Origin: an uncultured Lachnospiraceae bacterium
Lineage (GTDB): Bacteria > Bacillota > Clostridia > Lachnospirales > Lachnospiraceae
DNA: 46,544 nucleotides
Direction of reading: 5' to 3'
NCBI GenBank assembly: GCA_947650005.1
Contig: CANSTU010000018.1
Span: forward strand, 1-46,544
The translations under genes were made by a program, and so were the position numbers. The notes beneath the pieces are model-generated. The model was not told the DNA's origin. It was given only the letters and a program-made list of their open reading frames with translations, and made no database searches. This document shows positions 9,625-40,879 of the stretch, one piece after another; within the stretch, counting starts at the first letter, position 1; each line of letters begins with the position of its first letter.

Positions 9625-9871
9625 GGCGATCTCCTCCAGGTCTGACTAAAAATCTCTTTCCTTATAGTCTGCCCAAAACCGGCCCGGCTATGTGCTAGGA
9701 AAGCAGGTCTCACCTGTTTGGCACGCAATGCGCCCCAAAACATAGGATGGCACGGGAAGATGCGATTATGAAGGCGGCATACAACATAAATTGAAAATTA
9801 CAGGATGGGGTTTGTATCGTATTTGTCTTGTTGTCCCTATTCCTTTCTTGCAGTGACGCCCTAGGTGTTTT

Positions 9872-10714: not shown

Positions 10715-10734
10715 ATTTGGCTCCTTTCTGCGTC

Positions 10735-10829
10735 AGGCCAAATGCAAGAATGCTCCTCCCTTCCTGGGCTTGAGCATACCGCCTTCCTCCGCTGCCCAGG
10801 GGACGCCAAACCATTCCTACATTTGGCCT
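10735..10829. repeat. Nested inverted repeat between two esterase genes
   Basis: AGGCCAAATG (10735-10744) pairs perfectly with CATTTGGCCT (10820-10829). Inside, GAATG (10748) pairs with CATTC (10812), and CTGGGC (10764) with GCCCAG (10794). The whole element spans 95 nt in the leader of the CE1-like gene. Its layered build resembles the element at 7419-7522, though the sequences differ. Confidence 0.65.
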
Positions 10830-10852
10830 ACTTCTACGTGTCATTTCTAAAT

Positions 10853-10878
10853 AGGGGAAGGGCATAAGCCCTTCCCCT
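10853..10878 (-). terminator. Intrinsic terminator after the carboxylesterase gene
   Basis: A perfect 11-bp stem (AGGGGAAGGGC / GCCCTTCCCCT) with a 4-nt loop, followed on the minus strand by ATTTAG. It lies 22 nt past the carboxylesterase stop codon. The short U-run suggests partial termination. Confidence 0.65.
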
Positions 10879-10900
10879 GCCAAACTGCCTTAGACAGCCT

Positions 10901-12412: not shown

Positions 12413-12513
12413 CCTTTTATACCTCCTTATTTCCTGCCAACTCCCATTTGCCTATTTTAAGGCATTAAATCCAGATCGTGAAATCGATTCAATTCTCGCC
12501 CGCTCTAAGGCAT

Positions 12514-14208: not shown

Positions 14209-14248
14209 TTCCGCCTCCTTTTTTCCATCCAAGCCGCCCGAATTCCCA

Positions 14249-15079
14249 TCATCCCTTCAGACCGCTCGTAACCGTACCTTCCACAAAATATCTCTGCCCG
14301 ACCAGATACAGGACCAACATGGGCAGAATGGACACGAATGCGCCGGCAAAAGCCGCTCCATATTCAATCGTATCCGTTCCCACGAACATGGCCAGACCAT
14401 TTGCCAGAGTCCGCATCGATGTATCCCCGGTAACCAGCAGGGGCCACATCAGGTCATTCCATGCGCCGTTCACTCCAAGGATGATCAAGGTAACGATGGT
14501 CGGTTTACACTGGGGAAGCATCACACGCCAGAACAGACCGAATTCGCTGACCCCGTCGATTCGGCCGGCTTCTTCCAGCTCCTTGGGGATTCCCATGAAT
14601 ACAGCCCTCATCATAAAAATCGAAATTGCGCTCGCCAGTTTCGGCAAAATAAGACCCAGATAAGTATTGTAAATTCCCAACTTATGTACCACCAGATACA
14701 AGGGGATCATAATGACCTGGAAAGGAATCATCATAGTGGCCAATGTTGCGATGAACAATACGTTTCGACCTTTAAATCTAAGCCGGGCGAAAGCATAGCC
14801 CGCCAAGGCATTAATGAAAACCCCGGGAACCGTGGTACATATCGCATAGATAGCAGAATTTTTCACATATTTTAAAATGGGGATCCGCCTTCCCAGTTTC
14901 GTGAAGTTTTCAAATACGATCTCCCCGGGTAAAAGGGTGGGGGGATAGGAAATGATCTGCCCCTGCGGTTTGAAAGAACTCAAGAACATCCACAGTATCG
15001 GAAGAAGGATGATCACCATCACAAACCCCAGAAAGATATAAATGGGCAAATATTTGATAAATCTCATGCTTTTTTTCAT
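14249..15079 (-). CDS. Carbohydrate ABC transporter permease (MalG-like)
   Basis: The 276-residue protein has six predicted membrane segments, the first at YLPIYIFLGFVMVIILLPILW. The cytoplasmic EAA loop that contacts the ATPase reads ELEEAGRIDGVSEFGLFWR followed by VMLPQCKP. This is the MalG/CUT1 second permease. The start at 15079 is set by GGGAG six nt upstream, borne on the leader repeat of this locus. It works with the first permease and the binding lipoprotein encoded upstream; no ATPase gene is nearby, as is common in Firmicutes that share an MsmK-type ATPase. A 393-nt gap with a large inverted repeat separates it from the first permease, so the two subunits may be made in unequal amounts. 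Confidence 0.93.
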   Translation of the reverse strand: MKKSMRFIKYLPIYIFLGFVMVIILLPILWMFLSSFKPQGQIISYPPTLLPGEIVFENFTKLGRRIPILKYVKNSAIYAICTTVPGVFINALAGYAFARLRFKGRNVLFIATLATMMIPFQVIMIPLYLVVHKLGIYNTYLGLILPKLASAISIFMMRAVFMGIPKELEEAGRIDGVSEFGLFWRVMLPQCKPTIVTLIILGVNGAWNDLMWPLLVTGDTSMRTLANGLAMFVGTDTIEYGAAFAGAFVSILPMLVLYLVGQRYFVEGTVTSGLKG

Positions 15080-15082
15080 TGC

Positions 15083-15127
15083 TGGCTCCCATCCGCGCAC
15101 TTTAGCGCGTACAAATCAGGAATTGCT
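15083..15127 (-). repeat. SD-carrying palindromic leader repeat, locus C
   Basis: On the minus strand GATGGGAGCAA, TTCCTGATTTGT, a palindrome (GCGC, loop, GTGCGC), then GGATGGGAGCCAGCA and the ATG of the permease. The order of parts matches loci at 2844, 29114 and 34419, but the first hairpin of the unit is missing. Confidence 0.6.
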
Positions 15128-15220
15128 CCCATCTCATGAAATCACTAAGCTTGCCGCCTCCCTATGACAGGCCAAATCGGTACAGTAAAACTGTGGATTT
15201 CATGCTTACCTTTCAATCTG

Positions 15221-15475
15221 TTAACTGTTGCTTTTCATGTCCTGTCAGGATACCACCCGTAAAGAAACCAGGCAGCCTTTCTACTTTTCTGGTTCCTTCC
15301 ATACCAGCGAAGGAATGTGCCCTACGGACACATCAAGCCTGCTCCCTGGAGGGCCCCATCCTGACAGGGAAGCGTATAAGGTTCCCTGGAATGGACGGAA
15401 CCAGAAAAGCACAAAGGCTATCCGGCTCCTTTCTAGGCGGTATCCTGGCAAGGCATGAAAAGCAACTGTCAATTA
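15221..15475 (-). repeat. 255-bp imperfect inverted repeat between the two sugar permease genes
   Basis: The left arm from 15221 matches the reverse complement of the right arm ending at 15475. Shared blocks include GTTGCTTTTCATG, CAGGATACC, AGCCTTT and CTTTTCTGGTTCC. By hand count about 65 of the outer 82 positions agree. Most differences are purine or pyrimidine transitions, and about nine become G-U pairs on the minus (transcribed) strand against about four on the plus. The element begins at the stop codon of the first permease. It may be a folded RNA processing signal or a MITE-like insertion. Confidence 0.85.
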
Positions 15476-16360
15476 ATCCGATTCCTGCTTCAGCATACGG
15501 CTGTATAAGAGAATCGTAATTACCAGGATCAGCGCAAACAGGCATTCCGAAACGGCAGTCGCATAACCCATCCGGTTCACTTCAAAGGCTCTGGTATATA
15601 CATAGGTTACCAGTGTCTCCGTCGAGAAATTGGGGCCGCCGCCCGTCGTGGTATATACAATGTCGAATACCTGCAGGGATCCGATCACCCGCGTCATCAC
15701 CACATACCAAAGGGAAGGGGCGATACCCGGCAGAGTAATGGCAATAAACTGCCTGAACTTCCCAGCGTGATCCAGTTCCGCTGCCTCGTAAAGTTCCCGG
15801 GGAACATTCTGCATGGCCGCCACGAGAATAATGGTAGAAATACCGAAGGATCTCCATACGGACATGAAAACGATTACGTAAAAAGTAACGCCCGGGTTGT
15901 TCATAAAGCTGACTTTTCCAAAACCAAGCTGTCTGAGTAAGAAGGGGATATATCCTACATTGGAGTGCAGGATCATCCGCCACATAATCGCCACCGCTGT
16001 GGCGGAACATATGATGGGAAGGAAATACACGCCCCTGCATATCTTATTAAATATCGTATTTTTCACGATAAGAGCCGCCAAAAATAAGGCTACAAGCACC
16101 TGTACCGGCATTTCCACCAGCGTCCATTTCACGGTAACCCACATGCTGTTCCAAAACCTGCTATCGTGAAAGGCTTCCGTGAAATTCCCCAAGCCGATAA
16201 ACTTCACATTGCTCAGCGTCATATTCGCATCAAATGTGCTGATCACCAGCGAGGCTACCAGAGGCAGGATGCTGAAAACCAGCAGCAGAAGCAGGGCAGG
16301 CGCGATAAATAAATAGGCGATATGCTCCGGCTTGTTCCAGAATTCTCGTATCTTCGTCAT
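15473..16360 (-). CDS. Sugar ABC transporter permease (MalF-like)
   Basis: The 295-residue protein has a first membrane segment at IAYLFIAPALLLLLVFSILPLV and five further ones. The EAA loop reads LYEAAELDHAGKFRQF followed by ITLPGIAPSL. The family is CUT1 MalF/UgpA-like permeases. The start at 16360 follows GGAG at five nt; an open extension to 16492 would overlap the binding-protein gene and lacks a ribosome site. It lies about 110 nt after the binding lipoprotein gene, and its stop codon is the edge of the large inverted repeat. It forms the transmembrane heterodimer with the MalG-like protein. Confidence 0.92.
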   Translation of the reverse strand: MTKIREFWNKPEHIAYLFIAPALLLLLVFSILPLVASLVISTFDANMTLSNVKFIGLGNFTEAFHDSRFWNSMWVTVKWTLVEMPVQVLVALFLAALIVKNTIFNKICRGVYFLPIICSATAVAIMWRMILHSNVGYIPFLLRQLGFGKVSFMNNPGVTFYVIVFMSVWRSFGISTIILVAAMQNVPRELYEAAELDHAGKFRQFIAITLPGIAPSLWYVVMTRVIGSLQVFDIVYTTTGGGPNFSTETLVTYVYTRAFEVNRMGYATAVSECLFALILVITILLYSRMLKQESD

Positions 16361-16469
16361 TCCGTCTCCATTCTGCCGACACTCATCGTCCGGCAAAGAA
16401 CATTCCAAGCAAACTGCAGGGAGGTCTGACAGTTCAAGGCCTCCCTGCTCCATGTACCAATCCAGCGGA

Positions 16470-17849
16470 TTACTTATTCGCAATCCTTTCAATTACGCTT
16501 TCTGCCATCGACTGCGCTTTGTCGAGGGCACTGCCAGGTTCTGCGCCTTCCATGATCACCGACTGAATCAACGGATCTATCACTTCATTGGCCAGAAGGA
16601 AAGGTTCCGTAAAGGTCGCCGGCGCCATATAGGTAGTGTCAACGGAAGGATCCGCAGACATGGCTACCAACAGTTCGCTGCTGGTATAACGCTCGTCCTG
16701 CGTAGCAGGCGTATAAACGCTGGGGAAGCCGCAGTCCAGAGACCAGCGCAGGATACCTGTGGTTTCTGTAGTTTCAAATCCCTTGAACCACCATTCGATG
16801 AAACGGAAGCAGGCTTCCTTTGCTTCATCGCTTGCATATTTCGTTACGGAAAAACCGGAAACCGTGGACGGATTGATAGGGCCCGCATCCCCGTCGGGAA
16901 GGAGGGAAATCCCATAGTTCAAACCAGCATCCTTCAGCCCTGCATTCAGCCAAGCGCCTGAGCAGATAATACCGATCTGTCCGGCCTGCATCATGGAACC
17001 AGTATCAGACTCCACAGGGTTGTTGCCCTGATCCACCATGCCTTTGTACCATTCAAGGAACTTCTTGTAACCTTCGTTTCCAGCAAAATTGGCGGTATAG
17101 CTGCCATTTCCGTCATCGCTCACATACATTCCGCCAAACCGCTGCATAATCTGCAAATTGGATGCCACATCCGTATAGGAAACGCCAGAACCATAGACAT
17201 TCCTGTCCTCATCCGTGATCTTAGCTGCCATTTCAGCCCATTCTTCATAGGTGGCAGGCGGGGTATCCGGATCCAGCCCGGCCGCCTCAAACAGATCCTT
17301 GTTCCAATACATATACCGGCCCGTCTGCTGGAAAGGCAGTACATAGACGGTATCGTTCAGGCTACAGGTATCAAGCAGGGACGGTACCCAATCCGCTTTT
17401 TCCAAAGAAGTCGCTTCAAAGATCTCATTCATGTCGATCAGATAATCAGGATAGGTAAACTTGTAATTGTGAACTCCCAGAATCATATCCGGGCCTTCGT
17501 TTGCGGCAAAAGATGCTGCAATCTTATTCTGGAAATCGCTGTTAATATCCATCTCAACCGTAATCCCATAAGGATTATCCGCATTAAATTCCTCCACCAT
17601 TTCCAGAAGAACGTTGCCGTCATTTCCTGTCCAGCCATTCCAGAATTGAATGGTTATAGGAGCGCTGTTGCTTTCCGCACTCTCTTCCACCGCGCTTTCG
17701 CTTTCACTTTCTGCCTGTGCAGGAGCAGATGAGGGTTCTGCAGCATCTCCCCCGCCCCCTGTTTCTCCTCCCTTTGAACCTCCACAGCCTGACAATGTAA
17801 CCATTACCAAGCTCATGCAGACGGCCAGCGCCTTTGCATACCTCTTCAT
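16470..17849 (-). CDS. Sugar-binding lipoprotein of an ABC transporter (family 1)
   Basis: The 459-residue protein begins with a lipoprotein signal peptide, hydrophobic ALAVCMSLVMVTLSGC with the lipidated cysteine, then a low-complexity Glu/Ser-rich linker. The mature part has the family-1 solute-binding pattern FWNGWTGNDGNVLLEMVEEFN. It captures an oligosaccharide or glycoside outside the cell and delivers it to the two permeases. The start at 17849 follows AAGGAGGAG; the open frame extends to 17900 without a site. A near-consensus promoter lies upstream with an operator shared with the LacI gene, so expression should be induced by the LacI ligand. It is the first gene of the operon. Confidence 0.94.
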   Translation of the reverse strand: MKRYAKALAVCMSLVMVTLSGCGGSKGGETGGGGDAAEPSSAPAQAESESESAVEESAESNSAPITIQFWNGWTGNDGNVLLEMVEEFNADNPYGITVEMDINSDFQNKIAASFAANEGPDMILGVHNYKFTYPDYLIDMNEIFEATSLEKADWVPSLLDTCSLNDTVYVLPFQQTGRYMYWNKDLFEAAGLDPDTPPATYEEWAEMAAKITDEDRNVYGSGVSYTDVASNLQIMQRFGGMYVSDDGNGSYTANFAGNEGYKKFLEWYKGMVDQGNNPVESDTGSMMQAGQIGIICSGAWLNAGLKDAGLNYGISLLPDGDAGPINPSTVSGFSVTKYASDEAKEACFRFIEWWFKGFETTETTGILRWSLDCGFPSVYTPATQDERYTSSELLVAMSADPSVDTTYMAPATFTEPFLLANEVIDPLIQSVIMEGAEPGSALDKAQSMAESVIERIANK

Positions 17850-29349: not shown

Positions 29350-30519
29350 TTATATTTTTGCCAAGGCCTGCTCCAGATCCTCCAGCAGCGCTTCCGTTCC
29401 TTCCAGGCCGCAGTGGATCCGGATCAATCCTCTGCCCTTTTCTCCCAACTGCAAAAACTTCAACTCTTCTTCGCTGGCGCCGGCCAACGGCGTGATGGCA
29501 AGGCTTTCAAATCCGCCCCAGGAGCATCCGATTTCAAAAACTTTCAGCTCGTTCACCAAACGCATGGCCGCCTCCGGTTCCGCTTTCAGCTGGAAACTCA
29601 TCAGGCCCGTATGGCCGGTCTGCTGTTTATTGATCAAGTCCGCCTGGGGATGGGACGCCAGGCCGGTATAATAGACCTTCTCCACTTTGGGGTGATTTTC
29701 CAGGAACGCAGCCACCTCCATGGCCGTCTTCTGATGCCTTTCCACCCGCAGATCCAGGGTACGCAGTCCCCGTATGGCCAGCCACGCTTCCATAGGCCCC
29801 AGAATACCGCCGAACCACTGCCTGATATTGTCCATCAATGTCTTCCCCAGCTTTTCATCCCGGACCGCCAAAATTCCGCCAATGATGTCGCTGTGTCCCC
29901 CGATATATTTCGACATGGTGTGCATCACAATGTCTATCCCCAAGGTTAACGGCTTCTGGTACAGCGGCGTACAAAAGCTGTTGTCTATGTATGTTTTCAC
30001 GCCATGGGCCTTCGCAATCTGCGCGGTTCCTTCGATGTCGAACACGGAAAAGACAAACGTGGCCGGGCTCTCCAGCACCATCAGGGCTGTATTGTCCCGA
30101 ATCAGGCTTTCCAGCTCATCCAGATCGCGCCCGTCCCAATAGGATACCGACATTCCCATCTGTGGAATGAAGTATTCGTTCAGCGCGCGTTTTACCGGCC
30201 CGTACACGTCCCGCAGACAGATGATATGGCTGCCTGCCTCGCATACTGCCAGAACTGCTGCAGAAAAAGCCGCCATCCCGCTGGCAAAAGCCACTGCCAT
30301 ACTCCCTTTTTCCAGTGCCGCCACCTTTTCCTCCAGGATATGTACCGTAGGGTTGGATACCCGGCCATACACATATTCCCCGGTTTTTCCCTGGTTCAGG
30401 TAGTCCTCCATCCTGTCGAAAATATGCAGGGAATTTAGGAATACCGGCGGCGTCACCGCGTTCAGATAGTCCTTTTGATGCTCCCCCGCATGCGTCAATG
30501 TCAACAATTCGTCCTTCAT
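29350..30519 (-). CDS. Cys/Met-metabolism PLP-dependent enzyme (cystathionine gamma-synthase/lyase family)
   Basis: The 389-residue protein matches the trans-sulfuration enzyme family. The PLP lysine is K204 in HTMSKYIGGHSD; the family pattern VYGRVSNPTVHILEEKVAALE and FASGMAAFSA is present near the N terminus, and YIDNSFCTP before the lysine. The family includes cystathionine gamma-synthase, cystathionine lyases, methionine gamma-lyase and O-acetylhomoserine sulfhydrylase; I cannot separate these by eye. AAGGAGGAG precedes the ATG. It is followed by the orphan amino-acid-binding protein gene with a promoter between. It borders the defence island and is the last ordinary metabolic gene before it. 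Confidence 0.9.
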   Translation of the reverse strand: MKDELLTLTHAGEHQKDYLNAVTPPVFLNSLHIFDRMEDYLNQGKTGEYVYGRVSNPTVHILEEKVAALEKGSMAVAFASGMAAFSAAVLAVCEAGSHIICLRDVYGPVKRALNEYFIPQMGMSVSYWDGRDLDELESLIRDNTALMVLESPATFVFSVFDIEGTAQIAKAHGVKTYIDNSFCTPLYQKPLTLGIDIVMHTMSKYIGGHSDIIGGILAVRDEKLGKTLMDNIRQWFGGILGPMEAWLAIRGLRTLDLRVERHQKTAMEVAAFLENHPKVEKVYYTGLASHPQADLINKQQTGHTGLMSFQLKAEPEAAMRLVNELKVFEIGCSWGGFESLAITPLAGASEEELKFLQLGEKGRGLIRIHCGLEGTEALLEDLEQALAKI

Positions 30520-30640: not shown

Positions 30641-31756
30641 TTATAGCCCGGGAACATGCCCCGCGACGAATTCCCGGAATGCCCTTACGGCATCCTTTTC
30701 CGGCGCATGGTTCCTCGCATCCAAAATGTAATTCAGGTTGCCTCCTGCTGCCTTGGAAACGGCCGTGCCCGCTCCATAGCTGCTCGTCAAACAGATCCTG
30801 TCAAAATCGTACCTACAGATCCCGTTATGATAATCTAAAAAATTCTCCTGGAATGCCTTCAAGGAATGGCTGTTGTTAACCTCTGGCAGCTTTAGGGTAT
30901 AAGGATATACCGCCAACAGGCGATCCGGACTCCCCACAATCCTCTCCATTTTCACGATACCGCCCTCTCTGTTGGGCACCGTAGAATAATAGAGCATATA
31001 GAGGGGACAGCCCAGGGTCTCCTTTAAGATTCCCAGGCTTTGGAACTTCAGCTTATCCGTGTCCCTATAATGATAAAGCGTCTCCCCTTCAACAGGGCCG
31101 TATTTCTTCTCGCTGAATATGGTGTGCTTTTTTACTTCGATCACTGCCTTGGCTCTCGCATTCTCATCCACCAAAACAATGTCCGCATCCCCCGGATAGA
31201 TATAATCGTCCCTGGATAAGTACACCTCCAGCGAAGATGAGGCGTACTGCAGCCCTTTGCGGCCTATGGCATGCGACTCCCTTCGCAGTCCGCGTATGAT
31301 TCCCTTCAGCTGATTCGCGCTTACCTCATACAATACCTCTTTCCCTGGGCAGCGCTCCAGATACTTTGTCATATTAAATAGGAACAAATGGTTTTCGGGA
31401 TCCGCCCAGGCGCCTGCTGGAATGTCCGGACATAAGAGATATTCCAGCTCAAACTGATTCTGCCTGCAAAAGCCCAGCAGGGTTTCTAGGCCATCTCTCC
31501 CGTCAACGGCGATGATTTTCCGATAGATCTCATCGCATTCCATGGAAAAAGGGCGATAGATGATCCGCTTGGTCCAAAGCCGCTTGGGAATCTTCCTTTT
31601 TTCCCAGTCCACAAAAAAGTCAAAGGTCACGCTGGACAAACCGTTATTTCTGAAATATTCGTTATCAAACCATTTCATCGGATCCCCGCAGTACGCATTA
31701 TAAGCCGCTATCTTCATCGGATCCTCCGCCCTGGCCAGAATTCCCTTCCGCAGCAT
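30641..31756 (-). CDS. PD-(D/E)XK nuclease-like protein of the restriction cassette
   Basis: The 371-residue protein is not a family I can name. Around residues 185-207 it has the pattern GDADIVLVDEN followed by AVIEVKKH, i.e. D, a short gap, then E-V-K, the core of PD-(D/E)XK nucleases. A lysine- and arginine-rich N-terminal half (KRKIPKRLWTKR) may contact DNA. Two good ribosome sites exist: GGGGAGG before 31756 and GGAGG before 31717; the longer form is given. It is the last gene of the DUF3788-methyltransferase-helicase series, 117 nt after the helicase. Its position suggests it is the cutting subunit, but the helicase also bears a GIY-YIG-like domain. Confidence 0.7.
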   Translation of the reverse strand: MLRKGILARAEDPMKIAAYNAYCGDPMKWFDNEYFRNNGLSSVTFDFFVDWEKRKIPKRLWTKRIIYRPFSMECDEIYRKIIAVDGRDGLETLLGFCRQNQFELEYLLCPDIPAGAWADPENHLFLFNMTKYLERCPGKEVLYEVSANQLKGIIRGLRRESHAIGRKGLQYASSSLEVYLSRDDYIYPGDADIVLVDENARAKAVIEVKKHTIFSEKKYGPVEGETLYHYRDTDKLKFQSLGILKETLGCPLYMLYYSTVPNREGGIVKMERIVGSPDRLLAVYPYTLKLPEVNNSHSLKAFQENFLDYHNGICRYDFDRICLTSSYGAGTAVSKAAGGNLNYILDARNHAPEKDAVRAFREFVAGHVPGL

Positions 31757-31873
31757 ACCCGCCTCCCCGCCGCATTCCCCTACGGCATCCCAATATAAAC
31801 CCAAAATCCTCGCCGAGAATCGGTTTTACATCCTCATTTTCCTCTGTATGGCCACAGCAAATCTAAGACCGGT

Positions 31874-34417
31874 TCAGGCATAAAAAAGGGCTTCATACTC
31901 CTCCCGTTGGATCGCCGTATCCCAGCCTCCCACATCTGTATCTTTTCTCATGTCAATGCCCGTATAAGATAGACTGGCGTCTTCGTAACGCTTGAACTTG
32001 AAGATCGCATCGTTCATCAGGCTCGCATTGAATACCCCGATGGTACAGAGCATCTCAAAATCCTTCACGTCCAATCCGGTCACCTTCCGAAAAAGTCCGG
32101 GTTCCAGCTGGGTGATAACATCCTTCAGGGTACGTTCACGGTACTCCGTTAAATACATGAAAATCGGCACCCTGGTGGCAAACTTGATCAATTTTTCCTG
32201 AATCTGCTTGCGCAGGAGCTTGTATTCCTTCTCCTCCTGGGTAAGCTCCCTCTTTTCCTTGTCCGTAAGCCGCCGGGATTCTTCCTTTTTCAATTGTTTC
32301 ACCCTTTCCGACTTGTTGATGATGATTTCCAAGTCCTGATTCAGGGCGCGGAAGCCTTCGATCTTCATCAGCGCGTCCATAGCCTCCCGGTTATTGATCA
32401 ACCTGGTTAGGGTATCGTTATCCACATTCACCAGAAGCGCCGATTCCCAGCGTCTGGCCAACAGCGTGGCAGAGGTGCCTGACAGAGCGATATCCAGCAC
32501 GTCTTGGGCGGAAATCTGCTTCATGGTGGAACCGTCATAGGCCAGAACAGGGAGAAAACTGATAAACTCCGCCACCTTGCGCTCCGGCTGATCTTCGTTT
32601 CCGTTCAGCCGGCAGGAATAGTCGGAAACCTGCCTCAACGCCCGATCCAGCGCGAAATCGAACACATAGCATTCCTGCTTCAGGATGATTTCACCGCCCT
32701 TTTCGTCCGGAACCGTCCAGGGAGACTGTACTCGGAACGCCGTCTGAAAATAGGTCTCCGGGCTTTTCAAGCTGCGCAGCATAAACACTCCCGTCCAGGG
32801 CTTGACCGTGACTGCCTGGGTCAATTTTCCACAGGACAGAGTGATGGTTTTTGTGGTAAGCGGATCTCCCATGGCCTCCAGCACCGGACGCAGGGCGTGC
32901 AGTCCCGTTCCCGCTCCTGTCCCCGCGCAGACCAGAATGCGGTAATCCGCGAAGAAATGATCCTCCTGCAGCAGATTGTACATGGCATAGCAGGAAGCCA
33001 CGTCAGGAAGAAACCACAGGGTATGATTCAACACCCTTAAGAGCCTGGTATCCGAAAAAGGCATGGGAGGACGTTTGTCCAGACCCAGCTTCATATCGTC
33101 CACATTGGAAGGCAGGTAGGCCCCTCTGATCAACGCAATCCACCTGGCCACCTCATTTTCATAGATAAACCGGGAATCCTCAACCCGTTTCGCCCGTTTG
33201 GCTGAGAAAAAAACGTTTAAATCGAATTCGTTGTACTCCCCTTCCATGGCGATCTGACGGATGCTCTCCGGAATCTGATAGGTCATCATCACCATACGCG
33301 GCAACGAAGCATAGGGGTTGCCGGGTCCTCTCCAGGTTTCCTTGGCTCTCTGTTCGTCGGAATAGGTCCAGCTATAAATCTGATCTTCTATGAATTCCCC
33401 GGAATTCATGGCGCGAAACGGCGTGCCGGACAGAAACAGATAGGCCCCCGTACGGATGGGCAGAAAAGTTTCGTCACAGGCATTATCCGCCTCCTGCGCC
33501 TTATATTTTTCCTGGTCGAAATCCACCTCCGCCTCCTCGTCCGGCTCCTCAAACAGCTTCTTCGCGTTCTCCCTCCAAGCGCCGAAATGGTATTCGTCGA
33601 AGATCACCAGATCCCAGTCCGTGGTGTGAATGAAACCGTTCTTCGCCTTGATTCCCCCGTTTTCATTGGTTCCCAACAGATCCTGGAAGGAGCCGAAGAC
33701 CACGATCGGCTTCGACCTATCCGCCTGACGGAAGGCATCGTCCACATTCATTTTCCGTTCCCGTGCGTCCTGATTGGAGACAAACTGCCAACCTTCAAAG
33801 TCCACATGGCTTTTCAGGTCTTCCATCCAGGCCGACTCAGCCGCGGGCTTAAAGGTGAGCACGAGCACCCTGGTATATCCCATCTGTTTGGCCAATTCAT
33901 AAGCCGCGAAGGTCTTGCCAAAACGCATTTTGGCATTCCACAGAAATTTCGGAGCCCGGCCGGGCTCCTCCCTCTTCGCCTGCTGATAGTAGGCACAAGT
34001 CCGCCTGACAGCCTCCCTCTGCTCAGGACGCATCTGAAAGCATTTGGTTCGATTTTCCGCGTTTTCCTTGCGATATCGGACAGAAAGGATGGCCGCGCGC
34101 ACCGCCTGTGCGTCACACTGAAACCACTCGTTTCTATCCTCCCCGGCATTGAGCTGCCGGTATCCTCTTTTTTGCAACGCCATATGTACATCGTGATCGG
34201 TAAAGCTGCTGCCGTCCGGGCGCATGGCCGACTCGCGCAGCACGATCCGATAGGGGACGGCGCTGGCATGCATCTGCTCGGCCACACGGGTTTCTACATC
34301 CCTTTTGGTATAGCCCACCTTCACATACCCGGCATGGCTGGCCACACCGGGCAGCATATATGCATAAATAGTGGGTGCAAGCTCCGGCCTTTGCCTAAAA
34401 AAATCCTGTTCTGCCAT
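31874..34417 (-). CDS. DEAD/DEAH (SF2) helicase with N-terminal GIY-YIG/T5orf172-like domain
   Basis: The 847-residue protein starts with a T5orf172/GIY-YIG-type nuclease-like domain, IYAYMLPG then YVKVGYTKRDVETRV within residues 15-110. An SF2 motor follows: Walker A NAKMRFGKTFAAYELA near residue 167, DEYH box VIFDEYHFG near 274, SGTPF as motif III and a second RecA-like domain with QTAFRVQSPW, as motif VI. A charged stretch rich in Lys and Glu (KKEESRRLTDKEKRELTQEEKEYK) near residue 730 may be a coiled coil. The start at 34417 is fixed by AGAGGGGAGCAAT on the leader repeat; the frame is open for 65 more codons upstream but runs through that repeat. Role inferred: translocating restriction subunit paired with the Eco57I-type methyltransferase gene just upstream. 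Confidence 0.87.
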   Translation of the reverse strand: MAEQDFFRQRPELAPTIYAYMLPGVASHAGYVKVGYTKRDVETRVAEQMHASAVPYRIVLRESAMRPDGSSFTDHDVHMALQKRGYRQLNAGEDRNEWFQCDAQAVRAAILSVRYRKENAENRTKCFQMRPEQREAVRRTCAYYQQAKREEPGRAPKFLWNAKMRFGKTFAAYELAKQMGYTRVLVLTFKPAAESAWMEDLKSHVDFEGWQFVSNQDARERKMNVDDAFRQADRSKPIVVFGSFQDLLGTNENGGIKAKNGFIHTTDWDLVIFDEYHFGAWRENAKKLFEEPDEEAEVDFDQEKYKAQEADNACDETFLPIRTGAYLFLSGTPFRAMNSGEFIEDQIYSWTYSDEQRAKETWRGPGNPYASLPRMVMMTYQIPESIRQIAMEGEYNEFDLNVFFSAKRAKRVEDSRFIYENEVARWIALIRGAYLPSNVDDMKLGLDKRPPMPFSDTRLLRVLNHTLWFLPDVASCYAMYNLLQEDHFFADYRILVCAGTGAGTGLHALRPVLEAMGDPLTTKTITLSCGKLTQAVTVKPWTGVFMLRSLKSPETYFQTAFRVQSPWTVPDEKGGEIILKQECYVFDFALDRALRQVSDYSCRLNGNEDQPERKVAEFISFLPVLAYDGSTMKQISAQDVLDIALSGTSATLLARRWESALLVNVDNDTLTRLINNREAMDALMKIEGFRALNQDLEIIINKSERVKQLKKEESRRLTDKEKRELTQEEKEYKLLRKQIQEKLIKFATRVPIFMYLTEYRERTLKDVITQLEPGLFRKVTGLDVKDFEMLCTIGVFNASLMNDAIFKFKRYEDASLSYTGIDMRKDTDVGGWDTAIQREEYEALFYA

Positions 34418-34418
34418 A

Positions 34419-34515
34419 TTGCTCCCCTCTGCGTGCAAAGCACGCACTCTTATCAGGGAGGTTGAAATTCCCTTTTTCAACCTTGCTTCCCTCTGCGTAC
34501 AATGCACGCACTCTA
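34419..34515 (-). repeat. SD-carrying palindromic leader repeat, locus E (two units)
   Basis: It begins at the methyltransferase stop codon. On the minus strand: AGTGCGTGCATTGTACGC, AGAGGGAAGCAA; hairpin GGTTGAAA/TTTCAACC; CTCCCTGATAAG; AGTGCGTGCTTTGCACGC; AGAGGGGAGCAAT and the helicase ATG. CUCCCU can pair with AGGGGAG, hiding the ribosome site. This is the clearest copy of the element. Confidence 0.75.
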
Positions 34516-36048
34516 AGCTTCCTCCGGCCGTTCCGGCCAGACAGAGGCCTCGATATATGCGATTTCCTCTTCCGTAAGGCCATATTTCTCGTACAGCTCT
34601 TCGTCCGTCCATGTCCGGCTAAAATCCTGCATGGGCACAAAGGAATAGACCCGTCTCATACAATCCTGCGTGTTTTTCTGCAGAGTAACCAGGAAATGGA
34701 AAAAACGGGTGCCCATGTATTCCATCACGTGCTCCGCAATTTCCCGGCTTTCAAAGGGCCCCACGAGCAGATAGGTTTCCGTACAGCAGGCTCCCGGTTC
34801 ACAGTATAGCGGCCTGATCACATCCGTTTTTCCGTCCCCTGAGCCCACCGCCTTGGGGACGATCACCTTGTGTTGATCCACGGCTTCCCGGTTTCTCGCA
34901 ATCTCCGCCCTCTGAACGTACTCGATCCTTCTGTTCGCATATAGTTTTACGCTGTCTTTAGAGGGTCTTTTCTTCGCCCCTTTATAATTGGTAATAAACC
35001 CGAACGGCTTCTTGGTGCTCACGATGGACGCAAAGGTATCCTCCCCCTTTGCCGCAACCTTATGCAGAATGGGGATCGCCTCATTGAGACGGATCACGAT
35101 GTCGCAGCCCGGTTCCCGCAGCAGCCGGTCCGCCTGAGATAGAATCCGCTCTCTCTGGTGCGTCACGAAGCGGCATGTTCCGTCGTACAATCTGTCCCGC
35201 AGAAAATAACAGACGCCGCCCTTGATCTCCACCCCAGGGAAGCAGTCCGACGCATCCGGAAAGTCGTGCAGCTCCCGGATGGAACGATCCGACATCATGG
35301 CATCCCTGAATTCGTCCAGCCCCCATCCTCCGGAAAACCACCTGGATGGGATAATCATCAAAAGATAACGCGGGTTCAGCTTTTTCGCCTGCTCGATGAA
35401 TTTGTGATAAACAGGCTTTGCCTGCGCGCCGTTATCGTCACCCGCCGTTGACAGCTGATACGGCGGATTCCCAATGATCACGTCAAAAGACATTCCCATA
35501 AGTTCCTCCGGTCTAGCATTATGAATGAATTCATAGGCATGGGCTTCCAGCCCCTCCCCCCTCTTTTGCGCAGACAGACTACCCTTCTGCGATGTTTTGC
35601 AGTAGATACACTTTCCGTTCTGCCAGCTATGCCCTATTTCCCGATATCTGATATTTCCCTCTTCATCTTCAAACCTGGATACAGAATACGCGCTGTTCGG
35701 ATATTTGGAACAATACAGGGTCCTTCTCGACAACAATCCCGTCAACTGTGTAATCGCAATCCCATACAACTGTCTGTGTAAAATATGGTCTATCCGCTCC
35801 TGCAGATCCGGTATCTGGCTTTCCAAGCCCACGATCAGCCGTTTCGCCGCCTCCCGCAGAAAGACGCCGGATTTGCAGGCAGGATCCAGAAAAGTCACCG
35901 ACGGATCCGTGAAAATCTCCTGGGGAAGCAGATCCAGCATGGCGCAGGCCACCTCCGGCGGCGTGAACACTTCGTCGTTCGACAGGTTTGCCAGGCAGGT
36001 TAATACATCCGGATTATAGACGGCCTGAAGGCCCCCTGTTTCAGCCAT
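34513..36048 (-). CDS. Eco57I-type N6-adenine DNA methyltransferase
   Basis: The 511-residue protein is a gamma-class N6-adenine methyltransferase. The start of the fold reads VFTPPEVACAMLDLLP; SAM-binding motif I is FLDPACKSGVFLREA, where lysine stands in the usual DPACGSG glycine position; catalytic motif IV is IIGNPPYQLS near residue 200. A region with four cysteines, YCSKYPN and CIYCKTSQKG, may be a small metal site. The C-terminal half should recognise DNA. Its ATG lies inside the end of the upstream methyltransferase-like gene (8-bp overlap), indicating coupled translation. It probably protects host DNA against the helicase-nuclease encoded next. Confidence 0.88.
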   Translation of the reverse strand: MAETGGLQAVYNPDVLTCLANLSNDEVFTPPEVACAMLDLLPQEIFTDPSVTFLDPACKSGVFLREAAKRLIVGLESQIPDLQERIDHILHRQLYGIAITQLTGLLSRRTLYCSKYPNSAYSVSRFEDEEGNIRYREIGHSWQNGKCIYCKTSQKGSLSAQKRGEGLEAHAYEFIHNARPEELMGMSFDVIIGNPPYQLSTAGDDNGAQAKPVYHKFIEQAKKLNPRYLLMIIPSRWFSGGWGLDEFRDAMMSDRSIRELHDFPDASDCFPGVEIKGGVCYFLRDRLYDGTCRFVTHQRERILSQADRLLREPGCDIVIRLNEAIPILHKVAAKGEDTFASIVSTKKPFGFITNYKGAKKRPSKDSVKLYANRRIEYVQRAEIARNREAVDQHKVIVPKAVGSGDGKTDVIRPLYCEPGACCTETYLLVGPFESREIAEHVMEYMGTRFFHFLVTLQKNTQDCMRRVYSFVPMQDFSRTWTDEELYEKYGLTEEEIAYIEASVWPERPEEA

Positions 36049-36655
36049 ATTCCTTTAACCTCCTGTAGTGAATCGGCGGGTAAGCCTTGATCAGAGTTCC
36101 TTCCCCCTCCAACAGCTGCGCAAAGGTGTAATCCTCCCGCTTCATCATCGGCCCTGTGGCAAAAGCCCATTGGCTGAAGATAATCGGCCTGTCCGTATCC
36201 CCTCCCATATCGTCCGCGCAACACAAGGTCAAGGCGTTCCCGCAGATAATATTGTGCTCCAGGATGTACCGGGCGGATTCCCGTACCTCCTCATTACGCT
36301 CCCTTTTCGCCACCGCTTTTTCATATTTCTGATTCCAAAGTCCATATAGCCGTTCCCGACAGGCAATGACGTTATCCCAAAGGAGTTCCACGCCATAGAG
36401 GCTTCCCAAGGCGAGCAGGGCATTTCTTTCATAATCATAGGGAACTTTTCTGTACCTTTTTGTCACCACATCCAGCTTCCGCCCCAGGATCTCCCACAGA
36501 AAATTCCCGCTCCCGCAGGCCGGTTCCAGAAAACGGGAATCGATGCGCAGGCATTCGTCCTCCACCAGGGCGCACATGGCCTCAACCTCCCGTTTCGCCG
36601 TGAACACCTCGCCATGGTCGGCCACGCGCCGCTTTGTCTTGACCTGCCCGTCCAT
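36041..36655 (-). CDS. Short methyltransferase-like protein lacking the catalytic NPPY
   Basis: The 204-residue protein resembles only the N-terminal half of an N6-adenine methyltransferase. It has HGEVFTAKREVEAMC as the X motif region and SAM motif I as FLEPACGSGNFLWEIL, then YGVELLWDNVIACRERL. Where NPPY is expected it has RPIIFSQWAFATG, so it cannot transfer a methyl group by the known mechanism. The next gene encodes a complete methyltransferase and overlaps it by 8 bp, so the two are made together and may form a heterodimer. The ATG overlaps the stop of the DUF3788 gene (TGATG). It could also be a remnant of a once complete enzyme, but the neat overlaps at both ends argue for a maintained subunit. 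Confidence 0.78.
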   Translation of the reverse strand: MDGQVKTKRRVADHGEVFTAKREVEAMCALVEDECLRIDSRFLEPACGSGNFLWEILGRKLDVVTKRYRKVPYDYERNALLALGSLYGVELLWDNVIACRERLYGLWNQKYEKAVAKRERNEEVRESARYILEHNIICGNALTLCCADDMGGDTDRPIIFSQWAFATGPMMKREDYTFAQLLEGEGTLIKAYPPIHYRRLKEYG

Positions 36656-37098
36656 CACTTCCCCTTTTCCCATCGCGCCGGCTGCCCCCTGCGGATTTCA
36701 ATCAGCCGGAATACGTCACGGTACATCCTGTCCTGATCCTCAAGGTCAATCATCAGCCACTTCTGCCCGTTTCCCTCCTCCGTCCGATCATAGATCTCCC
36801 TGATTTGCGCAGTACACTCCGGAAGAATCGCTTCCAAGGTTTCCTTTTCCTTCCTGCCCACCACGACCATCACCGTGAAGTAGGATTCCCGGGGATATAT
36901 GGTGCACAACGTCTTCCCTGATTTCTTAAATTTGATGTTCCAGCCCGGCTCCCAGCTGCAGGAGCTGAATTCGATTTTTTCCTTGCATTGGAATCCTTCC
37001 TTCATTTGGGAACAGAATTGGAGGAATACGGGGGTACGGATATAGCCTCCGATTTCCTCAAGGGTAGGGCGGCAGCTTTTATCCTGTAAATCTATCAT
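36655..37098 (-). CDS. DUF3788-family protein
   Basis: The 147-residue protein matches the DUF3788 pattern by eye: an N-terminal PTLEEIGGYI, a central WEPGWNIKFKKSGKTLCTIYP, then YFTVMVVVGRKE and a late WLMIDL. The family's role is unknown to me. The start at 37098 follows GGAAGG; the open frame runs further upstream through the promoter at 37199-37227 and is not credible there. It is the first gene of the cassette and its stop overlaps the next start, so co-expression with the methyltransferases is likely. It may be a passenger or an accessory regulator. Confidence 0.78.
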   Translation of the reverse strand: MIDLQDKSCRPTLEEIGGYIRTPVFLQFCSQMKEGFQCKEKIEFSSCSWEPGWNIKFKKSGKTLCTIYPRESYFTVMVVVGRKEKETLEAILPECTAQIREIYDRTEEGNGQKWLMIDLEDQDRMYRDVFRLIEIRRGQPARWEKGK

Positions 37099-37198
37099 GT
37101 ACGGCACCTTCCATGTAATTTCTTTGACAGTTCGGCTAAAACGATTGCATCCGGGCAAGAAAGGTATCTGGGACATTCCGCGCCGGTTTCCGTTATCC

Positions 37199-37227
37199 AT
37201 CATAACAGAAAAGGGGGGACTTATCAA
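37199..37227 (-). promoter_or_regulatory. Promoter of the DUF3788-methyltransferase-helicase cassette
   Basis: On the minus strand TTGATA (37227-37222), 17-nt spacer, TATGAT (37204-37199). The -35 overlaps the stop codon of hsdS. It separates this cassette from the type I system transcriptionally. Confidence 0.65.
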
Positions 37228-38588
37228 CTAAACACAACCTCCTCGAATTCCCTTTTTGCAAGCAGCCTCAGATCCTCCGCCTTTTGGCGTAATGCCCTTA
37301 TCTTTCCTTTCCTAACCGCTATCTGTCTGGCAATTTCGTCTTGCGTCGCACGATCCGGCAAAGGGAACTGCAGCTTCTTCACATTTTCCACACCGAGTTC
37401 CGTCTGATTTGTGGCCTGGGCGCTTTTGATCATTTCAATCTGTTTTTGGCCGAAGCTGCTGTTGATCAGATAGACGAGCAGCTGAGCGTTCACATATCTT
37501 TCATCGACCCTCAGGCACAGCATATGGCTGTCATAGAATAATCCGGCATGTCTCTCCTCTTTTATCCGGCCCGCCCTCCCCAGCGTACCTTCGCCGGTCG
37601 AATTGATCAGGATATCGTTGAATTGGGTAAGCAAACTCTTGTCTATCTTTTTGAGCCAAAGGGAGTCCACCTTCTTTACGAACGTTAAATCGATTTCATC
37701 CCAGCGATTGCATTTCTGGTTCAGCAGATATTCTTCACCCTCCTGGGCATATATGGGGCTCTTTCCGCGGGTGATGGACAAACACCATTTCGGCATATTC
37801 GAAAAAGAGCAGGCATTATCCTTCACAAACGAATAGGGAAAGGAAAGGACGTTCCTATCGTATCCCCACTGCGCAGTCTCTTTCAGACGGACGAATTGGA
37901 GCGTCCCTGATTTCTCTCTGCCCGTCCGCTTCCTGGTAACGATTCCCAGACTTTCAAATAAATAGTCTTCTATCTCCGCCTCCGAAGATTTTATCTCTTT
38001 TTCGCACATCTTCGCTTCCTTGATCGTGCTACCATATTTTTCGGCCAGCTTTCTCTGCTCCTTCAAGCTGGGAAAGGGAATCTCACAATCCATGAAATCC
38101 GCCTCGTTTACCCTCTGCCGGTTTGTCGTTCCATTGCTCTTGCTCTGCCAGTAGCTCTGAAATCTGAGGCTGGACAAAACGAGCATCAGATACGCCTCAT
38201 CCGCCCCGTACACATCAAATAGCCAAAAATCGTTGGTCACAATGGCTCCATCCAATGCCGGCGGAACCACCCCGAATGCACCATTTCTGGCATCTATTCT
38301 CGATAGGATCAATTGGCCAGCTTTTGCCCGAAACTGCCTTTTCGTACCTATTTCTCTTCCATATACCCTATCCCGTTCAAAAACCCCGTTCCCATAGAGC
38401 TTTACCGTGATTCTCCGATACTGCGTTGTATCCTCCACCATTATGACATCCTTAACCCGCTTCATGATGTCTGAAAGCTTCTGCATTTTAAAAGATGACG
38501 AAAAGCGGTTCATGCCGTAAGCATCCACGCTCCATTTGTTCAGCTGCGTAAAGCGGATCAAGGATAGAATTCCGTCTTGCTCTACCAA
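37224..38588 (-). CDS. hsdS: Type I restriction-modification specificity subunit HsdS
   Basis: The 454-residue protein has the two target-recognition domains and two conserved helices of HsdS. The first domain ends in IPFPSLKEQRKLAEKYGSTI; the second ends in FPLPDRATQDEIARQIAVRKGKIRALRQ. It gives the methyltransferase its DNA target of two half-sites. The start is taken as TTG at 38588, which overlaps the upstream stop and has GAGGAAGAG before it; a later ATG exists about 24 codons on. The order hsdM-hsdS is normal. No hsdR with motor domain is encoded in this window, so the type I restriction side appears absent or elsewhere. Confidence 0.88.
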   Translation of the reverse strand: MVEQDGILSLIRFTQLNKWSVDAYGMNRFSSSFKMQKLSDIMKRVKDVIMVEDTTQYRRITVKLYGNGVFERDRVYGREIGTKRQFRAKAGQLILSRIDARNGAFGVVPPALDGAIVTNDFWLFDVYGADEAYLMLVLSSLRFQSYWQSKSNGTTNRQRVNEADFMDCEIPFPSLKEQRKLAEKYGSTIKEAKMCEKEIKSSEAEIEDYLFESLGIVTRKRTGREKSGTLQFVRLKETAQWGYDRNVLSFPYSFVKDNACSFSNMPKWCLSITRGKSPIYAQEGEEYLLNQKCNRWDEIDLTFVKKVDSLWLKKIDKSLLTQFNDILINSTGEGTLGRAGRIKEERHAGLFYDSHMLCLRVDERYVNAQLLVYLINSSFGQKQIEMIKSAQATNQTELGVENVKKLQFPLPDRATQDEIARQIAVRKGKIRALRQKAEDLRLLAKREFEEVVFS

Positions 38589-40036
38589 TTCAGCTCTTCC
38601 TCCCTGCCCTCCGCTATCCGATAAATCCTGCCATCTTCCTTTATGGTATAGATGATGGAACCTCTCTTTTCCTGCCACAATTGATTCCTGATCCGGTATG
38701 TCTTGTATTCCTCCTGCAGAGGTTTTAGCTGGTTATTCGAAGAAACTGCCCCTGTGGCTGTTATCCCCGCGTCCTCCACCATCGCCATCGGAATTTCATA
38801 ATCAAAATACTTTTTAATAAGAGGCTTTGCTTTCTCAATAATTGCGTCTTCTATCGCGGCCAGCCGTATTCTGATTTCTTTGATCTTTCTGCGCGTCTGC
38901 TTCTTATTGTCCGGATTCTGCTCCAGATTTTCATTTTGCATGCGTAACTCCTCATCCAGACGGGCGATTTCATTCTGATAGGTTTCCCGAACTTCCTTTC
39001 TCGCCTTTTTCGTTACATTTGCATAGGTTATCTCTTCCTCTTGTGTAAACCGTTTTAAGAAAACGAGGCTGGGCTTTACCGTTGCCCCTGCGGCTGTAAA
39101 GACGTCCTGCGGTATGGAACAGATCAAAAGGATTTTCGCTCTGCCCTCAAAATATTCACGGACTTTCTGCAGATTGGAAGTATTTAACACGCCCTCCGGA
39201 AGGACCATTCCCATCCGTCCGCCCTTCTTCAACAAGCGTAAGCAGCGCTCCATGAATAAAACTTCCGTGAGCCCCGACATCTCGCCCACGTCGAATATTT
39301 TCAATAAAGGTTTGCCGATATTATCGTTCACCTGCTTTAACGCCTTCTCATAAGCGTCGCCATATTTTCGGAGGTATTGATCTATCAGCTCCTGATCCGT
39401 AAACTGATCGGCTTCGGAGATTTTCTGTCCTTTATCGATCCGCGCCCCAAACGGCGGATTGGTCAAAATAACGTCGAAACGCTCTTCAAAAATACCGTTC
39501 ACGTTTAACAGCCCGTCATGATGATGCACACCGCTGTGGCCATCGCCATGCATAATCATATTCATCTTGGAAGTTCTTGCCATCCGTGGATTCGCATCGG
39601 TGCCATAGATGCAGTTATGGGAAAGGCAATGCATCCGGCTGTTAATCTGCTGTGTATTCAGCTCTCCGTTCAGGGCATTCTGCATACGCTCTATTTTCTC
39701 ATTTATTACTAGTTGTTCCTTTTCGCTTTTCTGCTCGTAATCAGCCCCTTCCATGGAGCTGCGCAATTCTTCCTTTGCCTCCTTGATCTCTTTTTCTATT
39801 TTCTCTCTGATATATTCAAAAGCTTTGATTAAAAAACCCCCGCTGCCGCAGGTCGGGTCGCATACCGTCTCTCCTTCCATGGGATCCAGGATGTGGGTCA
39901 TAAAATCAACGATCGTTCTCGGTGTGAAAAATTGGCCCAGTTCTCCGCGGAATGTAGTGCCCAGAAACTTTTCAAAGGCGATTCCTTTGATGTCATCCTG
40001 TGTATCGGAAAGATTATAGGTTTCCAATTTTTCCAA
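38582..40036 (-). CDS. hsdM: HsdM-type N6-adenine methyltransferase domain (3' part of amber-split gene)
   Basis: This 484-residue segment has the HsdM core: GELGQFFTPRTIVDFM, SAM motif I VCDPTCGSGGFLIKAF, and catalytic LTNPPFGARI. It methylates adenine at the HsdS target. The reading frame is in fact open back to 40096, directly after a TAG, and continuous with the segment upstream (40097-40879); the two form one gene interrupted by a single stop codon. The coordinate start given here is a TTG without a clear ribosome site, so separate translation is doubtful. If read through, the product would be about 765 residues. Confidence 0.85.
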   Translation of the reverse strand: MEKLETYNLSDTQDDIKGIAFEKFLGTTFRGELGQFFTPRTIVDFMTHILDPMEGETVCDPTCGSGGFLIKAFEYIREKIEKEIKEAKEELRSSMEGADYEQKSEKEQLVINEKIERMQNALNGELNTQQINSRMHCLSHNCIYGTDANPRMARTSKMNMIMHGDGHSGVHHHDGLLNVNGIFEERFDVILTNPPFGARIDKGQKISEADQFTDQELIDQYLRKYGDAYEKALKQVNDNIGKPLLKIFDVGEMSGLTEVLFMERCLRLLKKGGRMGMVLPEGVLNTSNLQKVREYFEGRAKILLICSIPQDVFTAAGATVKPSLVFLKRFTQEEEITYANVTKKARKEVRETYQNEIARLDEELRMQNENLEQNPDNKKQTRRKIKEIRIRLAAIEDAIIEKAKPLIKKYFDYEIPMAMVEDAGITATGAVSSNNQLKPLQEEYKTYRIRNQLWQEKRGSIIYTIKEDGRIYRIAEGREEELNW

Positions 40037-40096
40037 TATCTGTTCAAAGCTGTTTTGCCGAATTTTAATGGTTTCCGTTTCTTCAAAAATATGGTC

Positions 40097-40099
40097 CTA
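40097..40099 (-). other. In-frame amber codon splitting the HSDR_N-HsdM fusion gene
   Basis: The frame reads EEFR, TAG, then DHIFEETETIKIRQNSFEQ with no shift. Related single-chain proteins, as I recall them, run through this point without a break. One base change from AAG (Lys) or CAG (Gln) would create it. Confidence 0.85.
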
Positions 40100-40879
40100 C
40101 CTGAACTCTTCTTTCGTCTGTTCAAACATCCACTGCATATAAGGAATATCTTTCGATGTTCCCTTTAAGATCGAGCGGTATCTTTTCTCGTGATTCTCAT
40201 GATCCAGGACAAATTGATCTTTTGTGAAAACTTTCGTCCCTCTCTGCTCTCTTTCATATTTAATCTTCATAAATAGGATCTTGCTGATTTCATCAAAAGC
40301 CGCCTCGGGCGAAAGTTTATCGTTGTTGCGGATAATGTTATGGCAGATTCTTAACGTCTTGGTAAATTCTTCGCGGGTGAATGTTTTGGTCTTATTTAAC
40401 AGTTCTTTTATCTTTTTTTCGCTCTCCGCTTCGGAAGCGGTGGGAAGCCAGACCACCTCAACCAGATTTTGTGGAAGATGATCCTTATCCACATTAAAAT
40501 ATTTCGTTTCTTTCTCGTTTGTCGTCACGAAAAAGCTCGCTCCGGCCCAAGATGCGTAATTGAAGCCTTGATAATAGTCTTCTTCGTGAATGCGGACGTT
40601 TTCCGCCTTGCACTCCACGACGATAAAGGCGTTCCTGTTCTCTAATTTATCCTGCTCGCTTTTCCATATGACGATGTCCGCCCTCGCAGCGCCTTTGCCG
40701 CGGTGTGAATTCGTAACTTTTAATTCCTGCGCCATCTGCGACAGCGTATAACCGTATTCATTCACCAATTTAACAATAAAGTTTTGACGTACCTTTTCTT
40801 CCGGCGTAGAAATATACCATTCGTTTTTTAACGGGCAGAAAATCTTCCTATCTTTTTCCCGGATTGTCATTTCGCTCAT
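40097..40879 (-). CDS. HSDR_N-like nuclease-fold segment (5' part of amber-split type I gene)
   Basis: The 260-residue segment resembles the type I restriction HSDR_N domain. The core is ARADIVIWKSEQ followed by AFIVVECKAE, the D...E-x-K of PD-(D/E)XK nucleases, then a helical region SPEAAFDEISKILFMKIKYERE that normally leads into the HsdM methyltransferase. GGAGG lies 8 nt before the ATG. The frame ends at TAG (40097-40099) with methyltransferase sequence continuing directly behind it. As it stands the protein would be a free nuclease-like domain. It starts 39 nt after the AlkC-like gene. Confidence 0.85.
   Translation of the reverse strand: MSEMTIREKDRKIFCPLKNEWYISTPEEKVRQNFIVKLVNEYGYTLSQMAQELKVTNSHRGKGAARADIVIWKSEQDKLENRNAFIVVECKAENVRIHEEDYYQGFNYASWAGASFFVTTNEKETKYFNVDKDHLPQNLVEVVWLPTASEAESEKKIKELLNKTKTFTREEFTKTLRICHNIIRNNDKLSPEAAFDEISKILFMKIKYEREQRGTKVFTKDQFVLDHENHEKRYRSILKGTSKDIPYMQWMFEQTKEEFR

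Follow-up and report, generated by a model that had tools for sequence, protein, structure and literature searches.

A probable DrdVI-like split type IIG restriction-modification operon with two local add-on genes in an uncultured Lachnospiraceae bacterium

Do five neighbouring genes that combine methyltransferase, helicase and nuclease-like proteins make up a defence system that still lacks a name? The question is raised by a stretch of 46,544 nucleotides from an uncultured Lachnospiraceae bacterium (the window; contig CANSTU010000018.1 of assembly GCA_947650005.1), where five minus-strand open reading frames (ORFs), all present and open, lie between positions 30641 and 37227. The initial annotation had proposed an undescribed restriction or defence cassette composed of a DUF3788 protein, a methyltransferase-like subunit without NPPY, an Eco57I-type methyltransferase, a helicase with a GIY-YIG-like domain, and a PD-(D/E)XK-like protein. 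Judging from the sequence, we give a probability of about 0.9 to another answer: the three-gene core is a DrdVI-like split type IIG restriction-modification operon, accompanied by two local add-on genes. This reading is based on which genes are present and how they are ordered, on full-length homology with the trio of the plasmid pDrdVI, on wide recurrence, and on purifying selection.

The core consists of M1, a small methyltransferase-like subunit of 204 residues (36041-36655), M2, an Eco57I-type adenine methyltransferase of 511 residues (34513-36048), and a restriction subunit of 847 residues (31874-34417), hereafter the helicase. M1 matched the Pfam profile MmeI_Mtase (E-value 2.5e-6) and has motif I (FLEPACGSGN) but no NPPY; M2 matched Eco57I (2.4e-33) and has NPPY. 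The helicase combines an N-terminal T5orf172 domain (2.4e-10), which we take to be of the GIY-YIG type, with a superfamily 2 (SF2)/ResIII motor (ResIII, 1.8e-5). Together with the DUF3788 match of the 147-residue protein encoded at 36655-37098 (4.4e-32), these Pfam results bear out the domains claimed for the first four genes. The starts supported by relatives are downstream of those of the longest ORFs (ATG at 37098 for DUF3788, 36655 for M1, 34417 for the helicase, and 31756 for the PD-(D/E)XK-like gene). They confirm the annotated overlaps of 1 to 8 bp among the first three genes: the stop codon of DUF3788 overlaps the start codon of M1 by a single base pair (36655), and M1 overlaps M2 by 8 bp. 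The genome encodes the helicase in one copy. The claim that modification, motor and nuclease are separate chains of a restriction-modification system is well supported.

A tblastn search of plasmids with the window helicase matched 79 records, among them pDrdVI of Deinococcus wulumuqiensis NEB 479. This plasmid has three genes side by side, for a DNA methyltransferase, an Eco57I methylase, and a DEAD/DEAH helicase according to its annotation. These genes match the window trio one to one, in the identical order M1-M2-helicase. M1 is 37% identical to the 212-residue DNA methyltransferase over nearly its whole length (E 6e-40), M2 is 48% identical to the second methyltransferase (E 1e-169) in an alignment that covers the whole length, C-terminal half included, and the helicase is 52% identical to its counterpart over the whole length. 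The PADLOC profiles PDLC03626 and PDLC03375 lead for the helicase and M2 of the window, and likewise for those of DrdVI. The literature classes DrdVI as type IIG, in a 'split methylase/RM' family that has a 'fused translocase and REase'. The window operon shows the corresponding features: an NPPY-less M1 with motif I, an NPPY-bearing Eco57I-type M2, a chain joining GIY-YIG-type and SF2 domains, and the order M1-M2-translocase. One result weighs against the assignment, i.e., a Pfam search of the DrdVI helicase (E ≤ 0.01) found ResIII but not T5orf172. Its N-terminal region does align with that of the window helicase, and G30, K33, G35, T37, R44, E97, and W98 are invariant in all 12 rows of the alignment. 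DrdVI is a named system whose subunits and their arrangement are those of the core, which therefore cannot be called undescribed. A match of this kind is one of the outcomes that the initial annotation had listed as refuting its proposal.

Might the restriction subunit have lost its ability to cut, so that the operon is a DrdVI-like relic or a system for modification only? The activity of the trio is predicted from sequence, a neighbouring type I-like frame contains a stop codon, and broken DrdVI-like loci are described for Bibersteinia. However, the three frames of the trio are untruncated and contain the invariant motifs, and in the one sequence pair compared, the window and the same-genus locus L062, dN/dS was 0.10 for the helicase (0.06 for M1 and 0.07 for M2). 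We consider such a loss of cutting very improbable.

The DrdVI-like trio recurs widely. A scan of GTDB genomes, using the 12-row helicase alignment as pattern, gave at least 587 confirmed loci, from which we kept the best 80, and a scan of viral contigs gave 58 loci. We compared the window proteins by tblastn (E ≤ 1e-3) with the neighbourhoods of 138 kept loci (L039-L176), of which 121 (L039-L159) form a close subset. These loci are not independent, e.g., L121, L123 and L124, or L127-L129, resemble near-copies. The order M1-M2-helicase was kept in 107 of the 121 close loci. In 12 of the 14 misses the contig had less than 1.7 kb ahead of the helicase (including L097, without M2 in its 919 bases), leaving two real exceptions: L107 without M1 and M2, and L153 with M2 but without M1. 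By eye, a recombinase-like ORF lies upstream of the L107 helicase. Within the family of the window, the helicase matched 14 of 200 genomes, its own included; the matches in G000, G107, G003, and G083 were nearly full length with at least 62% identity, and the helicases of the same-genus G107 and L062 were both 88% identical to that of the window. With at least 587 GTDB loci, and others on viral contigs and plasmids, the DrdVI-like family is far commoner than the literature suggests.

Upstream of the operon, on the same strand, are mcrB, mcrC, a gene for a DNA_alkylation-family protein, a type I-like methyltransferase with HSDR_N_2, and hsdS, and the region looks like a defence island. McrBC restricts modified DNA. 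McrBC homologues follow the helicase in L027, L091, L119, and L127-L129, which include a phage genome and viral contigs. In the phage, NatCom_35866 (L027), the trio and McrBC occupy 7694-16887, whereas McrBC is upstream in the window. A DrdVI-like trio with McrBC would carry together the restriction of unmodified and modified DNA.

These surroundings might mean that the trio belongs to the upstream type I-like system and borrows its HsdS for specificity: hsdS is on the same strand and ends 126 bp ahead of the DUF3788 ATG, and L062 also has an HsdS fragment upstream of M1. Yet L062 is the only one of the 138 related loci with HsdS, and M2 aligns along its entire length with a pDrdVI methyltransferase, C-terminal half included. 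Moreover, the frame of the type I-like methyltransferase (HSDR_N_2 and N6_Mtase, 38582-40879, minus strand) has an in-frame TAG at 40097-40099 between its halves, so that the upstream system may be inactive or its halves separate. We find this explanation extremely unlikely.

If the core is DrdVI-like, are the two outer genes its obligate partners, making up a new defence system of five genes? The five genes share a strand, DUF3788 and M1 overlap, the PD-(D/E)XK-like gene occupies the same place in L062, and in genome G243 a relative of it lies directly ahead of a type III-like mod-res pair. However, DUF3788 was found in none of the 138 related loci, by tblastn or with a profile from 18 DUF3788 loci (L177-L194), and the PD-(D/E)XK-like gene was found in one, L062, by tblastn or with a profile from its three homologues. 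The full set of five was found in none of the 138, and the recurrent five-gene synteny that the initial annotation had suggested as a check is thus absent. Furthermore, L062 has a GNAT gene in the place of DUF3788, and in the literature the pDrdVI methylases function in Escherichia coli without either outer gene. We therefore rejected the five-gene system, which is very unlikely on these neighbourhood counts. Because neither outer gene recurs among the 138 loci, we regard both as local extras of a DrdVI-like operon.

The DUF3788 gene is probably a passenger. In L062 the GNAT gene (Pfam 6.9e-14) sits between the HsdS fragment and M1; the remaining arrangement, from M1 through M2, the helicase, and the PD-(D/E)XK-like gene to the gene downstream, is retained. 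DUF3788 was detected in 12 of the 61 genomes of the relatives set (E ≤ 0.001; own included), 10 of them over the cut-off, and a further copy lies elsewhere in the window's own genome.

The PD-(D/E)XK-like gene (30641-31756, 371 residues) is under purifying selection: its copy in L062 is 77% identical, with a dN/dS of 0.18 (0.08 for the flanking gene at 29350-30519), for the same single sequence pair. We regard its product, seen beside the trio only in this genus, as a probable lineage-specific accessory, perhaps a second nuclease. Its label comes from the motif GDxDIVL ... IExK, invariant in all three aligned homologues; the protein had no match in Pfam, NCBIfam, PADLOC, PHROGs, or the PDB sequences, and its AlphaFold model (mean pLDDT 49) was too poor for a fold search. 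No relatives were found on the plasmids or viral contigs searched. The protein matched three of 295 order-level genomes (its own, G243, and G032 with a 52-residue match) and one of 398 phylum-level genomes (its own), and its profile matched two of 391 class-level genomes (its own, and a weak match with stops). The relative in G243 (L201, 8784-9560, minus strand) is 36% identical over its open part, has a stop further upstream, and slightly overlaps the N6_N4_Mtase gene that it precedes, itself followed by a ResIII gene.

The genes had also been assigned a promoter of their own. The sequence TTGATA-17-TATGAT is indeed present (37199-37227, minus strand, overlapping the hsdS stop), with 10 of 12 matches and a TG ahead of the second hexamer. 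But the region has seven such sites where 11.3 are expected, no more than in shuffles. Hence, neither a promoter nor a single five-gene transcript is established.

A lead that the core offers is the apparent division of methyltransferase motifs between M1 and M2. M1 has a canonical S-adenosylmethionine (SAM) loop without NPPY, and M2 has NPPY with a lysine in its SAM loop (motif I). The idea that M1 simply compensates for this lysine is weakened, because the lysine also occurs in more distant relatives that are single-chain or split otherwise. Among distant viral relatives, L161, L163, L174, and L175 have the helicase first and a small NPPY-less M1-like ORF last, and in L163 the helicase is fused to an NPPY methyltransferase. 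M2 had no match in a search of PDB sequences. The motor fold of the helicase matches LlaBIII and LlaGI; since many SF2 proteins score alike, this backs a motor and no particular subfamily. Three NAP1-related PDB chains matched helicase residues 695-788 (E 0.002-0.009), which we took as chance.

A second lead is the junction between M2 and the helicase, which carries additional genes in some of the loci. It exceeds 200 bp in 26 of the 114 close loci where both genes are readable (19/76 genome loci and 7/38 viral loci), mostly with one main ORF, against 3 of 107 for the junction between M1 and M2 (Fisher's test, 5e-6, which ignores the relatedness of the loci). We listed extra genes there in L041, L045, L049, L051, L052, L054, L059, L061, L069, L077, L092, L100, L101, L103, L104, L108, L111, L121, L125, L127, L135, and L136. 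Twenty-four of the 26 long-junction loci contributed 25 ORFs to the cargo scan (Pfam, E ≤ 0.01); L123 and L124 were omitted as copies of L121. Twelve ORFs had no match and 13 had one, of which eight were over the cut-off: Abi_2 (L052 and L059, both on the opposite strand), HEPN_Apea (L054, L104), HEPN_AbiU2 (L092), AAA_21 (L051), DUF2971 (L101), and HicB_lk_antitox (L136). Below the cut-off were HEPN_AbiU2 (L077, L103), DUF4276 (second ORF of L051), HTH_34 (L100), and Zn_ribbon_CSL (L041). Among the twelve matchless ORFs, some may not be real genes (for example in L056 and L080), and the seven of the twelve that were scanned with PADLOC had no match there either. By-eye impressions of 'SIR2-like' cargo in L069 and 'EVE-like' cargo in L121, L125, and L127 were not supported by Pfam. 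A paper on EVE domains had no bearing on the gene set of the window. On plasmid pCRULAC2 (L021), M2 and the helicase are separated by a Tn3-family transposase, further transposition genes, and genes for aminoglycoside resistance. Genes embedded in restriction-modification operons are known for type I (TgvAB, PMC11411939); our literature searches found no mention of them for DrdVI-like operons.

In the window this junction (34418-34512, minus strand) contains no gene but a palindromic repeat with a strong predicted RNA structure (z -5.3, for a region picked after seeing the repeat). The repeat sits just ahead of the ATG of the nuclease subunit, whose translation it might regulate. A search of the genome with one exact pattern from the hairpin found no further occurrence. 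At the L062 junction (7849-8006), a unit of 66 bp is present in 2.4 tandem copies; no tandem array was called at that of the window. Strong junction structure is not a trait of the family (median z -0.6 in 87 loci, one below -3).

Taken together, these features allow a tentative reading, which we think possible but rather unlikely to be right as a whole. DrdVI-like operons would be a platform in which a heterodimeric methyltransferase divides its motifs (SAM loop in M1, NPPY in M2), and the space from M2 to the restriction subunit would be a slot in which a second defence gene (Abi_2, HEPN, AAA, toxin-antitoxin, or proteins without known family) can be exchanged, as a backup to restriction. 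The slot of this genus would hold a hairpin that throttles translation of the nuclease subunit, with a PD-(D/E)XK-type nuclease added downstream. The divided motifs and the cargo slot are specific, testable features, and the loci with cargo are places to seek new single-gene defences.

We saw no mechanism for DrdVI in the papers found to name it. We propose that M1 and M2 would jointly bind a short, asymmetric target sequence and methylate it on one strand, giving N6-methyladenine. Where a site lacks this methylation, the restriction subunit, in complex with M1-M2, would hydrolyse ATP and translocate on double-stranded DNA, and its GIY-YIG domain would cut, probably on meeting another complex, by analogy with type ISP enzymes.

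How does the operon compare with other known systems? As annotated, its gene set is unlike type I, type III, and single-chain type ISP. Like the type ISP enzymes LlaGI and LlaBIII, it combines an SF2 motor, a nuclease, and an adenine methyltransferase; these enzymes are described as single chains with an Mrr-family nuclease, whereas the window has three ORFs and an N-terminal domain matching T5orf172. The PADLOC model REase_MTase_IIG PDLC03626, a single-chain helicase-methyltransferase, covers the window helicase (profile positions 151-800) and M2 (864-1356), which are split in the window, and M1 had no match to it at E ≤ 0.1. Type III Mod-Res systems also have separate modification and helicase subunits, but the window has two methyltransferase-like chains. 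The type III Mod-like protein of G243 matches N6_N4_Mtase and M2 matches Eco57I/N6_Mtase; neither M1 nor M2 matched PF01555 at E ≤ 0.5. A type I (HsdRMS) system is not indicated, with no HsdS match among the five genes and only the one HsdS among related loci. The best NCBIfam scores for BREX and MADS were below the cut-offs (M2, 19.5 of 400 for BREX_2_MTaseX; M1, 18.5 of 720 for MADS2), and none of the five proteins had an NCBIfam DISARM match. The annotation of DrdVI shows neither DUF3788 nor a PD-(D/E)XK-like gene alongside, whereas the window has both, as well as the hairpin repeat between M2 and the helicase. The three proteins and their order are the same. Hence, a candidate new system gives way to a firm assignment to a named but little-studied family: the window operon is an additional member of the DrdVI-like split type IIG systems, with local add-ons.

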